Shown: one piece after another, positions 17,809 to 63,759 of the stretch | Position numbering within the stretch: the stretch's first letter is position 1 | Layout: each line of letters starts with the position of its first letter | Source: Peptococcaceae bacterium BRH_c4b | Lineage (GTDB): Bacteria; Bacillota; Desulfotomaculia; Desulfotomaculales; Desulfocucumaceae | Direction of reading: 5' to 3' | Assembly (NCBI GenBank): GCA_000961595.1 | Contig: LADO01000021.1 | Span: forward strand, 21,228-85,227 | DNA length: 64,000 bases | Made by a program: the position numbers and the translations under genes | Notes under the pieces: model-generated | Databases searched by the model: none | Told to the model about the DNA's origin: nothing | Seen by the model: the letters and a program-made list of their open reading frames with translations, nothing else

Positions 17809-17839
17809 CCAGAGTACGAAAACTTGTTTATACGAAATG

Positions 17840-18032
17840 AACCCCACTAATGCCGTCAAAACCCCAAAATTTCCTTGAACCTGTTCAAACAGGTGGGTGC
17901 CCTCCTGATTGATTTTTACTTCCCTGGTGTTTCAAGGGCATGTAAGCCACAACCAGAGTCCGGACTCCCTTTCAAGCAGTGTTGGCTCAAAACTTCAGAG
18001 TAATCACGCACATAGCAGGGTGTTTTTCTTTG
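17840..18032 (-). ncRNA. ssrS: 6S RNA
   Basis: On the minus strand the region reads CACCCTGCTATGTGCGTGATT, then TTTTGAGCCAACACTGCTTG, AAAGGGAGTCCGGACTCTGG and GTGGCTTACATGCCCTTG, all typical Firmicute 6S elements. It ends with GGCATTAGTGGGGTT, which can pair back to the 5' end. The position between aspS and tcdA matches B. subtilis bsrA. A TAATAT-type -10 lies just upstream. 6S RNA mimics an open promoter and sequesters the housekeeping RNA polymerase. The exact ends are estimates. Confidence 0.88.
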
Positions 18033-21354: not shown

Positions 21355-21615
21355 AATAAACCCCCGCCCCCGGCCATGCAAAAAATACTGGCCAGGGACG
21401 GGAGCAGTTCCCGCGGTGCCACCCTGTTTGGAATAATTCCCTCTTGTCAGGCTTTTAACGGGGCCGCCGTGCCACCCTACAGGCCAGTCAGGCCTTCAGG
21501 CGCCGCTCCCGGGTGTTCTTTCGGTGTATTCCCGGGGAAGGGCTTGCAGTCCCGGACCCTTCCTCCCTGCTCCTGAGATGGTACACTTACTTTTCCCGGT
21601 CAACACTTTTACTAA
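21355..21615 (-). promoter_or_regulatory. T-box riboswitch controlling hisS-aspS
   Basis: On the minus strand the conserved T-box AGGGTGGCACCGCGG lies at 21411-21426, followed by a GC-rich terminator hairpin and T-run (~21350-21405). Stem III ends CCCCGTTA. In Stem I the base helix CCGGG/CCCGG and GTGTA/TACAC enclose an AGTAA-containing loop; the opposite strand reads GAACAC, giving CAC (His) as the likely specifier. The bulge base reads TGGC, which would pair with a G discriminator. Confidence 0.9.
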
Positions 21616-51336: not shown

Positions 51337-53820
51337 CTACTTGACCACGATGTTTACCAATTTTCCCGGTACCGGAACAACCTTGACCACCTGCTTGCCC
51401 TCAATCATATTCTGCACTTTAGGCTGTTCCAGCACTAGCTTTTTCATTTCTTCCGCGCTAATGCCCGCCGGCACCAGCATCCTTTCCCGGACCTTGCCGT
51501 TGAGTTGTACAACAATGGTTATTTCGTCCTCCACTATGGCAGCCGGGTCATACTCCGGCCAGGGCTGTTTGTGGATACTTTCCCCATGCCCGGTGCCTCG
51601 CCACAACTCCTCGGAAATATGCGGGGCGAAGGGTGCCAGGAGGATTAACATGTGTTCCACCGCCTCCCTCAGCACGGCGGGGTCCCGGTCGCTTTCCGGC
51701 ACCTCCTTAAACTGATATAACCCGTTTACCAGTTCCATGATGGAGCTCACCGCCGTGTTGAAATTAAAGCGGCTGCCCACGTCCTCGGTCACCTTTTTGA
51801 TGGTGGCATGGGTAAGTCGCCGCATCTCCCGGTTAACCCCCACCAGTTTCCCTTCAGGCCTGGGCGGGGCCTTTAGCAGGTCATTCGCCAGGGGGGCCAC
51901 CAGCCGCCACACCCGGTGCAGGAAGCGGTAACTGCCTTCCACCCCCTGGTCGCTCCACTCCAGGTCGCGCTCCGGCGGGGCTGCAAAGAGTATGAACAGG
52001 CGGGCTGTATCCGCCCCGTAGGAAGCCACTATTTCTTCCGGGCTCACCACATTCCCCTTGGACTTGGACATTTTGGTGCCGTCCTTCAGCACCATGCCCT
52101 GGGTGAGCAGGTTGGTGAAGGGCTCGATGTTTTTAACCAGTCCGATATCGTACAGGAATTTGGTAAAGAACCGGGAGTAGAGCAGGTGCAGTATGGCGTG
52201 CTCCACACCCCCAATGTACTGGTCCACGGGCAGCCAGTTGTTTACCTTGTCCCGGTCCCAGGCCGCGTTTTCTTCCCGGGGGCTGGTGTAACGGTAATAA
52301 TAAAATGAAGAACACATGAAGGTGTCCATGGTATCCGTTTCCCGGCGTGCAGGCTTGCCGCACCCGGGGCAAGTGGTATTCACAAAATCCGGGCTATCCG
52401 CCAGGGGTGAGCGGCCAGTGGGCTTAAATTCCACGTTCCCGGGCAGCAGTACCGGTAAATCCTGCTCGGGCACGGGAACCACCCCGCAGTGGTCACAGTA
52501 AATCATTGGTATGGGAGCACCCCAGTAGCGCTGCCTGGAAATCAGCCAGTCCCGCAAACGGAAATTAATTACTCCCCGCCCGGTATTTTTTTCTTCCAGA
52601 TATTTTATTACTTTCGCAATTCCCTCTTCATTGGGAGTGCCATTAAAAGGCCCGGAATTAACCATTCTGCCTTCACCGGTATAAGCCCCGGCCATGGTTT
52701 CCGGATCAAGATCCGGCCCTTCCGGCTGAATAACTATTCTGATGGGCAGATTGTATTTCCTGGCAAATTCAAAGTCCCGCTGGTCATGGGCGGGCACGCC
52801 CATCACCGCGCCGGTGCCGTATTCCAGCAACACATAGTTGGCCACCAGTATGTGCACCTTTTCGCCGGTTAAAGGGTTAATACAGTATCCGCCTGTGAAA
52901 AAGCCTATCTTTTCCGCGTCCGTGGCGGTGCGGGCAATCTCACTTAAATTCCTTACCTTGTTTACGAATTCCCTAATTTCTGCGGCCTGGGGTTTGCCGC
53001 TGATTATTTTTTCCACCAGGGGGTGCTCCGGCGCCAGCACCATGTAAGTAACGCCGAAAACAGTGTCCGGCCGGGTGGTAAAAACGGTAAAGCTCTCCTC
53101 TAGCCCCTCGATGGGAAAGTTTATTTCCGCCCCCTCGCTGCGGCCTATCCAGTTCTCCTGCATAATCTTGACCTTTTCCGGCCAGCCTCCCAGCAGGCTG
53201 ATATCGTCCAGCAGGCGGTCCGCATAGCTGGTAATTTTAAAGAACCACTGCTCCAGCTCGCGTTTTTCCACGCCGGTTTTACAACGTTCGCAGGCGCCCT
53301 CCTTAACCTGCTCGTTGGCCAGCACGGTGGCGCAGGAGGGGCACCAGTTCACCGCCGCTTTCTTTTTATAGGCCAGCCCGTGCTTGTATAACTGAATAAA
53401 AAGCCACTGGGTCCATTTGTAATAGCCCGGGTGGCAGGTGGCTATCTCTCTGTTCCAGTCATAACTGATACCTAATTGTTTAAGCTGCTCCCGCATGGTT
53501 TTGATATTTTCGTAGGTCCATTCTGCGGGGTGCATGTTGCCGTGCTTGATGGCGGCATTTTCCGCCGGCAGCCCGAAGGCGTCCCAGCCCATGGGATGCA
53601 GCACGTTATGTCCCTGCATTGTTTTGAAGCGGGCCACCACATCACCGATGGAATAATTCCGGACGTGCCCCATGTGCAGCTTCCCCGAGGGGTAGGGAAA
53701 CATTTCCAGGCAGTAATATTTCGGGCGGTCACTGAAGTCCTGCACCTCGTACAGATTTTCCGCCTCCCAGGACTTCTGCCATTTTTCTTCAATTTCCTTG
53801 AAATCATAGCGTTCTTTCAA
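51337..53820 (-). CDS. leuS: Leucine--tRNA ligase
   Basis: 827 residues. Class I signatures: [20 protein letters not shown] (HIGH variant HMGH) and [14 protein letters not shown]. The CP1 editing domain (~220-420, [37 protein letters not shown]) is complete, and a zinc-like CPSC..CERC knuckle is visible at ~155-180. It charges tRNA-Leu with leucine. Expression is controlled by a T-box leader whose architecture is unusual because a tRNA-Ala gene is nested in it. Confidence 0.98.
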
Positions 53821-53837
53821 TTCATGATCCTCCTAAT

Positions 53838-54160
53838 AAAAACTCCCGTCCTCAATAAGGGACGGGAGTAATATACCCGCGGTACCACCCTTGTTGGTAA
53901 GTTATTGCCTGGTGGAGCTGGCGGGAATCGAACCCGCGGCCTCTTCCATGCCAAGGAAGCGCGCTCCCTCTGCGCCACAGCCCCATAACTTTACCCACTC
54001 GTGTGTGTTGTTAACGGTTACCACCGAATCGGAGTACCTATTCCTCCGACCAACTCAGAGGCGAGTTCATCAGCACGTCTTTACCGCCTTACACCAACCG
54101 GCGGCTCTCTGCAAAATACGCGCCTGCTTACTACTCCCCATCAATGTTGTTCCTCTATTT
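53838..54160 (-). promoter_or_regulatory. leuS T-box riboswitch interrupted by a tRNA gene
   Basis: On the minus strand Stem I starts near 54150 (GGGGAGTAGTAAGCAGG), with the AGAGAGCC and GGTTGGTG elements and the specifier in TGAACTCG (CTC, Leu). Stem III ends ACCGTTA near 54011. The T-box AAGGGTGGTACCGCGG lies at 53878-53893, and the terminator is ACTCCCGTCC..GGACGGGAGTTTTT (53838-53869). TGGT pairs with an A-discriminator CCA, as in tRNA-Leu. Between Stem III and the T-box, GGTAAAGTTAT and ATAACTTACC form a 10-bp helix (one bulged A) whose loop is the tRNA-Ala at 53910-53984. Confidence 0.92.
53910..53984 (-). tRNA. tRNA-Ala (anticodon GGC), CCA encoded, inside the leuS leader
   Basis: Acceptor GGGGCTG pairs with CAGCTCC, giving the G3:U70 alanine identity pair. 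The D arm is GCGC-AGAGGGA-GCGC with a 7-base loop. Anticodon arm CTTCC-TTGGCAT-GGAAG gives GGC. The T arm is GCGGG-TTCGATT-CCCGC. Discriminator A and CCA are genomic. All stems are perfectly paired. It has no separate promoter; it is transcribed with the T-box leader. Confidence 0.95.
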
Positions 54161-54171
54161 TGACAATACCA

Positions 54172-54201
54172 ATTATAAAATATGCGCATTTGTGTTGTCA
54201 A
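54172..54201 (-). promoter_or_regulatory. Promoter of the tRNA-Ala/leuS transcript
   Basis: Perfect TTGACA (54196-54201) and perfect TATAAT (54172-54177) on the minus strand, 18 bases apart. The start would be near 54165, just before Stem I. Such a consensus promoter is stronger than usual for a synthetase gene and suits a stable RNA. Confidence 0.85.
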
Positions 54202-54216
54202 CGACAACAATTAAGG

Positions 54217-54328
54217 AAAGGGGACACACCTTCCTGGGTTCACTATATCCCTTTCTCCTTATTAAATCCGGGAGGGATGCCTAAATAGGAACGGTTACAC
54301 ACCTTCAAGAAGGAATGTCCCCGATTTA
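54217..54328. repeat. Repeat family B, two units
   Basis: GGGGACACACCTTCC.. and a second unit GGTTACACACCTTCAAGAAGGAATGTCCCC. It lies between rsfS and the leuS promoter. Confidence 0.7.
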
Positions 54329-54679
54329 ATGGGCCGACATCTCCACCACAGGCGCATCGCCCCACAGACGTTCCAGATTATAAAAGTGCCGTTCGTCATC
54401 CTGAAAAACATGTACTACCACGTCACCAAAGTCCAAAAGCACCCATCGCCCTTCCTTAAATCCTTCTTTGCGGGGTTTCAGGCCGAAGTCCTCCGTCAGG
54501 GCTTCTACGATGCCCTCTGCAATAGACTGTACATGAACAGATGATCTCCCGCTGCAGATAATGAAATAGTCGGCAATGATGGAAATCTTGCTGATATCCA
54601 ACATGGTGATATTATAGGCCTTCTTGTCCTCAGCAACCTGTACGGCAATACCGGCCAGTGTCTGTGGATCTAACGACAA
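54326..54679 (-). CDS. rsfS: Ribosome silencing factor RsfS
   Basis: About 117 residues from a TTG eight bases after AAGGAGG ((M)SLDPQTLAGIAVQVAEDKKA). Core features: YNITMLDISKISIIADYFIICSGRSSVHVQSIAEGI and WVLLDFGDVVVHVFQDDERHFYNLERLWGDAP. It binds L14 of the 50S subunit and blocks subunit joining during starvation. It lies 50 bases downstream of yqeK. Confidence 0.95.
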   Translation of the reverse strand: MSLDPQTLAGIAVQVAEDKKAYNITMLDISKISIIADYFIICSGRSSVHVQSIAEGIVEALTEDFGLKPRKEGFKEGRWVLLDFGDVVVHVFQDDERHFYNLERLWGDAPVVEMSAH

Positions 54680-63637: not shown

Positions 63638-63644
63638 AATTTAT

Positions 63645-63759
63645 TCCGGCGACGACCTACTCTCCCAGGGATAAATCCCAAGTACCATCGGCGCTGAAGG
63701 GCTTAACTACCGTGTTCGGGATGGGAACGGGTGTACCTCCTTCGCTATGGTCACCGGAA
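63645..63759 (-). rRNA. rrf: 5S ribosomal RNA
   Basis: The minus strand reads CCGGTGACCATAGCGAAGGAGG, then ACACCCGTTCCCATCCCGAACACGG, GTTAAGCCCTTCAGCGCCGATGGTAC and GGGAGAGTAGGTCGTCGCCGG. This is the standard 5S pattern with complementary ends. About 115 nt; the ends are estimated to within a few bases. Confidence 0.96.

Follow-up and report, generated by a model that had tools for sequence, protein, structure and literature searches.

Why does the leader RNA of a leucyl-tRNA synthetase gene contain a tRNA gene of another amino acid, and what does this tRNA do there? The question arises from Peptococcaceae bacterium BRH_c4b, in which a complete tRNA-Ala(GGC) had been noticed, from the sequence alone, inside the T-box leader of leuS. 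Our analysis confirmed this observation. It had further been proposed that maturation of the tRNA and induction of leuS compete for one RNA, and that the supply of alanine tRNA could thereby be coupled to leucyl-tRNA synthetase expression. We analyzed the locus in the window, that is, the whole stretch of 64,000 nucleotides (contig LADO01000021.1, positions 21,228 to 85,227), and compared it with other genomes. Taken as a whole, the original interpretation was partly supported.

Anatomy of the leuS leader

The features of the locus, from the promoter to leuS, are as follows.

54172..54201, minus strand: promoter TTGACA-18-TATAAT of the whole unit, 12/12 consensus matches
53855..54153, minus strand: T-box leader (RF00230), Rfam 125.2 bits over the full model (1-219), gathering score 93
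54063..54065, minus strand: specifier CUC (Leu; CTC in DNA), from the Stem I alignment
53996..54000, minus strand: GAGUG, the RRRxG motif 5' of Stem III, from the sequence (motif as given in the available part of PMC7583486)
53985..53995, minus strand: 5' arm of Stem III, GGUAA(A)GUUAU, extending to the base directly 5' of the tRNA
53910..53984, minus strand: tRNA-Ala(GGC) with G3:U70, A73 and encoded CCA (ARAGORN; Rfam 68.2 bits; cloverleaf pairs)
53896..53905, minus strand: 3' arm of Stem III, AUAACUUACC, beginning four bases past CCA
53895-53894, minus strand: AA motif 3' of Stem III, from the sequence
53878..53892, minus strand: T-box sequence AAGGGUGGUACCGCG, with the UGGU bulge at 53887-53884
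53842..53869, minus strand: intrinsic terminator, alternative to the antiterminator, 10 pairs (7 G-C) and then a T run
51337..53820, minus strand: leuS, leucyl-tRNA synthetase, 827 aa, TTG start listed (TIGR00396 1132.5 bits, cut-off 548.4)

ARAGORN and Rfam both placed the tRNA (53984-53910) within the Rfam T-box (54153-53855). The leader has what is expected of a T-box, namely GAGTG, AA, the TGGT bulge and a leucine specifier before leuS. Likewise, the nested gene has the cloverleaf and A73 of a tRNA-Ala(GGC), together with the GGC anticodon, G3:U70 and genomic CCA that had been predicted. The helix formed by GGTAA(A)GTTAT and ATAACTTACC is Stem III, with 10 pairs and one bulged A. That is, the tRNA occupies the loop of Stem III, and the flanking RRRxG and AA motifs are intact. 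The antiterminator and the terminator, which have the segment CCCGTCCC in common, were mutually exclusive in the modelled folds. A single TTGACA/TATAAT promoter had been thought to drive the whole unit, and we found no other promoter-like site in 53780-54400; the claim that the tRNA has no promoter of its own also holds there.

None of the other 13 T-box matches of the genome contained a tRNA (14 T-box matches in total, 8 of them above the gathering score). One of them also lies in the window, at 21391-21612 (minus strand, 98.9 bits); the synthetase-like genes 3' of it (21333-20080 and 19990-18188) are hisS- and aspS-like by eye. Rfam also found a 6S RNA (17837-18024) and a 5S rRNA (63644-63758), both on the minus strand of the window.

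Leucine specificity of the T-box

The predicted specifier, CTC, was found at 54065-54063. Of the unique leaders for which 200 nt or more of upstream sequence was available, 143 in all, 129 carry AA(A)CTCR(C/T)C, compared with 1 of 143 shuffled sequences, and the other 14 mostly have CTC with altered neighbours as judged by eye. A stricter anchored search, in which other leucine codons were allowed, matched 113 leaders, all of them with CTC, and left 46 unmatched. Judging from these sequences, the nested T-box is a leucine T-box.

A complete tRNA-Leu(GAG) was found in 11 of 14 tested loci of relatives, including that of the nearest genome (G029), which belongs to the same genus. The 66-contig assembly of the host contained no complete gene for this tRNA, just a 3' half (G000:C54:12934-12983, minus strand), which was rejected as a whole tRNA-Leu(GAG) because its 5' half is missing. 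Since the 3' half alone was found, the complete gene of the host would either lie in an assembly gap or have been lost. Two loci outside the window (L361 and L362) were grouped with this 3' half. Relatives carry between one and several copies of the 3' half (three in G012 and five each in G033 and G090), and the extra copies resemble remains as left by elements integrating in that tRNA gene.

Distribution of the nested arrangement

The arrangement was found in 47 of the 113 genomes of the class, and conservation in close relatives, on which the original prediction depended, was thus established. The count was obtained as follows. A pattern consisting of a T-arm closely followed by a T-box matched 34 of the 113 genomes, and one match (L069 in G098) was dropped because neither a tRNA nor a T-box was there. 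For the remaining 33 matches, 29 loci including that of the window genome were fetched, and ARAGORN found tRNA-Ala(GGC) in 29/29. Rfam found a T-box in the window and in 28/28 of the other fetched loci; the L045 hit, at 76.7 bits, does not reach the gathering score, and the contig end truncates L074. Four genomes (G108, G109, G111 and G112) were counted from the matched letters alone. Genomes with altered T-box letters were added in two groups (G014, G018, G026, G027, G028, G030, G031 and G032; then G016, G017, G019, G020, G021 and G024), giving the total of 47.

In a phylum sample of 398 genomes, a looser pattern matched 92, of which 84 were left after 8 had been removed for having no tRNA-like 3' end by eye; 6 of the 84 do not encode CCA. 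Thirty of these loci were fetched, and ARAGORN found tRNA-Ala(GGC) in all except L239, which is cut by the contig, and L241, which is a chance match. A T-box was found by Rfam in 7/7 phylum loci checked. In L242, parts of a group II intron (1695-1993) come directly after the nested T-box (1273-1585).

When named genomes were searched with a pattern blind to the isotype, at least 118 stretches were matched, and ARAGORN found tRNA-Ala(GGC) in 94 of those listed; among the rest of the 118, 6 were not re-matched because of a narrower gap, 15 gave no call (two of them, L085 and L115, sit at the edge of the locus), and 3 gave another tRNA. The titles of the carrier records among the matches listed name Bacillota, Chloroflexi, Armatimonadetes, Coprothermobacterota, Caldisericota and Actinomycetota. 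Taking the class loci and the listed named-genome matches together, tRNA-Ala(GGC) was found at 123 of 142 places, and no other kind of tRNA stood before leuS among the matches listed. The tRNAs for Ser, Gln and Pro seen once each among the 142 places were not before leuS and were taken as chance.

The start of leuS lies less than 400 nt from the nested tRNA at 74 of these 123 places (L045-L192, matches listed) and 400 nt to 4 kb from it at 22; the other 27 loci end before leuS is visible. Class loci make up 22 of these 27; leuS was found about 1.9-2.3 kb downstream in 21 of their 22 genomes, and on another contig in G013. We translated the intervening genes in nine loci (L082, L137, L048, L053, L162, L095, L108, L102 and L111). 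Judged by eye, the gene that separates the nested T-box from leuS is acyl-CoA ligase-like (about 550 aa) in some class relatives, branched-chain aminotransferase-like in L095 and L108, and acetyltransferase-like in L102 and L111.

Nine loci spanning phyla were examined with Rfam, and a T-box lay over the tRNA in all nine. Four are from Ktedonobacter, Sphaerobacter, Symbiobacterium and Syntrophomonas wolfei, and the other five are titled Chloroflexi, Coprothermobacterota, Caldisericota, Armatimonadetes and Actinomycetota; six of the nine scores are below the 93-bit gathering score (lowest L142, 39 bits). Metagenome-assembled genomes account for most of these loci. An assembly artefact had been named as a finding that would speak against the nested gene, and a recent random insertion of a tRNA gene would be a similar explanation. 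Because other genomes share the arrangement, three of them single-contig (G022, G061 and G094), and because it recurs in several phyla, the nesting is not due to chance or to an assembly fault; with the covariation described below, we give such an explanation practically no credence.

Relatives in which the T-box and the tRNA are separated

In 24 class genomes, a tRNA-Ala(GGC) that was not seen to be nested precedes leuS by no more than 4 kb, and in the 19 of them that were screened no T-box was found at E 0.01. The best promoter site ends 10-23 nt 5' of the tRNA in 14 of 16 such T-box-less linked leaders. In 12 of the 16, the stretch from the tRNA to leuS contains a hairpin (7 or more pairs) followed by a T-rich tail, compared with 2 of 320 shuffled sequences, by a rule specific to this analysis; a terminator-scanning program was positive in 1 of 3 T-box-less relatives.

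The other separated state, a leuS T-box without a tRNA as judged by Rfam and ARAGORN, was found in nine class genomes (G010, G012, G033, G034, G056, G086, G088, G096 and G098), and G085 has a weak one. In G033, G034 and G056, Stem III of the leuS T-box is short and of the ordinary kind. In G033 (L278), which has this plain Stem III, the 16S and 23S rRNA genes flank a tRNA-Ala(GGC). The Stem III loop of G010 and G012 has the first 13 bases of tRNA-Ala, GGGGCTGTGGCGC, intact, and the middle is missing. In local alignment with tRNA-Ala, the inserts of these two genomes (L274 and L275) scored 3.0 and 3.5 sd over shuffles, one shuffle equalling L274, and other Stem III inserts scored 2.9 sd (L292) and 2.5 sd (L286), the resemblance being weak for all. 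Because their first 13 bases match exactly and stand at the expected position, the inserts of G010 and G012, and only these, look like decayed tRNA-Ala genes.

A FastTree tree of 114 leuS proteins placed the separated states inside nested groups in the class, with 8 label changes compared with a shuffled mean of 28.8. This tree has long branches, and the ancestral state cannot be read from it because all rows outside the class were selected by the nesting pattern.

Conservation and folding of Stem III and the tRNA

Counted from the anchors, at least 4 contiguous Stem III pairs were formed by a locus's own arms in 86 of 111 loci, compared with 784 of 2220 combinations in which arms were exchanged between loci with equal freedom of choice. 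With anchors placed regardless of pairing, pairs 1 to 5 were paired in 82, 89, 83, 85 and 75 of 102 loci, by G-C, A-U, C-G, U-A and G-U pairs; these counts come from related sequences, so they do not represent independent events. This covariation indicates that Stem III around the tRNA is a real helix. G3:U70 was present in 73/73 unique nested tRNAs with CCA, and acceptor pairs 5-7 showed compensated changes. These features indicate that the nested gene is maintained as a genuine tRNA.

In the fold models of the window leader, the structure with the cloverleaf and Stem III had -114.4 kcal/mol in the terminator state and -104.2 kcal/mol in the antiterminator state. The free optimum, at -115.3 kcal/mol, lacks the cloverleaf, a difference of 0.9 kcal/mol from the terminator state. 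The leader as a whole folded no better than shuffled sequences (z -1.2, 12/100 shuffles as good). As far as these models go, Stem III and the cloverleaf could coexist with either state of the switch.

When the acceptor stem was fixed in the fold, leader and trailer paired up to G1 in 95 of the 107 loci modelled, and no leader base beside the tRNA stayed unpaired there. Furthermore, 52 of 111 nested leaders, which are related so that the counts are not independent, are able to pair bases -2/-1 with A73-C74; the same holds for 4 of 45 other tRNAs of the host (from 150 scored among 176 candidates) and for 4 of the 16 linked tRNAs that lack a T-box. In the window itself the leader has A(-2)U(-1), with which a second pair is impossible. 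According to the available part of PMC9433436, E. coli RNase P works more slowly when leader bases -1/-2 pair with the 3' RCCA. The pairing of leader and trailer would plausibly slow RNase P rather than invite early cleavage.

Promoter and copy number of the nested gene

The region from -400 to -140 relative to the tRNA contains a promoter-like site (at least 10/12) in 112 of the 128 unique nested leaders; the end of the -10 box has its median at -189 from the tRNA, upstream of Stem I. Between -140 and 0, just 2 of the 128 have such a site, compared with 1 in the shuffled set. That is, what was seen in the window about the promoter is general among nested leaders.

In 45 of the 47 nested class genomes, the host included, no tRNA-Ala(GGC) was found besides the nested gene, while G013 and G094 have two each. 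The copy number was taken from the count of one pattern, from which 32 of 136 matches were excluded by eye as non-tRNA, because the tRNA list of the host (45 tRNAs; 150 of 176 candidates scored) is incomplete. Being the sole tRNA-Ala(GGC) found by this pattern argues that the nested tRNA is used by the host.

Two kinds of tRNA-Ala(GGC) occupy the nested slot, with the loop GGCATGG or GGCATTC, which separates families f4, f6 and f18 from the others. G013 carries both kinds, one of them nested. It therefore seems that the slot has been rewritten.

Role of the nested tRNA

We think it probable that the leader yields two products and that the tRNA-Ala(GGC) nested in Stem III is kept there by lock-in. 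Every transcript from the single promoter would supply a precursor of tRNA-Ala, whether leuS is on or off. Transcription of leuS would be the only step to depend on the charging of tRNA-Leu, and would follow when tRNA-Leu is uncharged. Because the terminator lies 3' of the tRNA, every transcript that reaches it holds the whole tRNA. RNase P and 3' nucleases would excise the tRNA from terminated and read-through transcripts alike. By pairing the 5' flank up to the tRNA, Stem III would keep the discriminator intact and delay RNase P until the switch has decided. Given the leader-trailer pairing and the effect of -1/-2 pairing described above, excision of the tRNA may well come after the decision of the switch. 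A benefit would be that the RNA of the terminated leader is not wasted. Once the sole gene of an essential tRNA had no other promoter, the arrangement would probably be kept for that reason. These steps of processing, timing and tRNA supply are read from sequence. Lock-in alone leaves the constant partnership with leuS unexplained.

The separate occurrence of the T-box and the tRNA in relatives argues against an obligate pairing of the kind implied by the original proposal of competition and of coupling between alanine tRNA and leuS. As each exists alone, we prefer to explain the arrangement by lock-in of a sole essential tRNA rather than by obligate cross-control. A looser form of regulatory coupling deserves to be weighed: the state of the T-box might gate release of the tRNA, or cutting of the tRNA might disable the T-box, so that leucine status tunes the supply of alanine tRNA. 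The pairing up to G1, the excess of -2/-1 pairing over other host tRNAs and the recurrence of the same gene pair across phyla are in its favour. However, besides the separated relatives, Stem III can persist in both switch states of the model, the 111 leaders are related, T-box-less tRNAs show the -2/-1 pairing in 4/16, and the window leader lacks the second pair. We consider this coupling unlikely, and we hold equally low expectations for the version in which the leucine T-box sets the access of RNase P to the Stem III tRNA and charging of tRNA-Leu controls the output of both leuS and alanine tRNA. If RNase P access were timed by the T-box in this way, an ancient link between the decoding machinery of two amino acids would have been kept across bacterial phyla.

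The tRNA might instead be a structural or kinetic aid; that is, a fast-folding tRNA would cap Stem III, and the extra 75 nt would delay the decision and give tRNA-Leu more time to bind. The position of the tRNA in the loop of Stem III, with covarying arms in the aligned loci, agrees with this. However, leuS T-boxes of the same class have a plain short Stem III (G033, G034 and G056), and the carriers retain a real alanine tRNA with its identity pair, which is beyond the needs of a cap, so that we find this explanation quite improbable. It had also been pointed out that the ACCA end of the nested tRNA is complementary to the TGGT of the T-box. The letters are indeed complementary, and pairing with the UGGU bulge in cis would amount to self-sensing. 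Since any tRNA with A73 is expected to fit, including tRNA-Leu(GAG) of relatives, which also ends in ACACCA, this complementarity is no evidence for pairing in cis, and the end of the nested tRNA is not free until processing; self-sensing has almost nothing to recommend it.

Comparison with known systems

In the literature searched, mostly outside subscription papers and partly in excerpts, no description of a tRNA gene inside a T-box was found, and look-ups of terms in the available text of PMC7778990, PMC2494555, PMC7583486, PMC3766115 and PMC1262725 gave none. Within that literature, this would be the first riboswitch known to have a complete functional gene in its own fold, and it is found in several phyla. 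The arrangement makes it possible to test directly whether stable RNA can come from terminated riboswitch leaders, how one RNA serves both RNase P and a T-box, which insertions Stem III can accommodate, and by what route a regulatory RNA comes to lock in an essential gene. The decayed and T-box-less relatives offer natural controls.

The leader resembles the transcriptional T-box RF00230 of the leuS class in its Stem I specifier, T-box bulge, RRRxG-Stem III-AA order, antiterminator and terminator, and downstream synthetase gene. It differs from that class in its Stem III loop, which consists of a complete tRNA gene for a different amino acid, identity element included. E. coli thrU-tufB is a mixed tRNA-mRNA transcript, in which the tRNA is likewise cut from an mRNA precursor; there the tRNA is not known to lie in a riboswitch fold, whereas here it is within one. 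Some T-boxes carry an insertion in Stem III or in helix A2 (PMC7583486), and our leader is like them in having extra sequence in the discriminator stems, although the available part of that paper mentions no insertion that is itself a gene. Finally, the B. subtilis thrS T-box leader is cut by RNase J1/Y, according to the available part of PMC3542257. The present leader would likewise be a nuclease-cut T-box, with the difference that here the cut by RNase P would free a tRNA.
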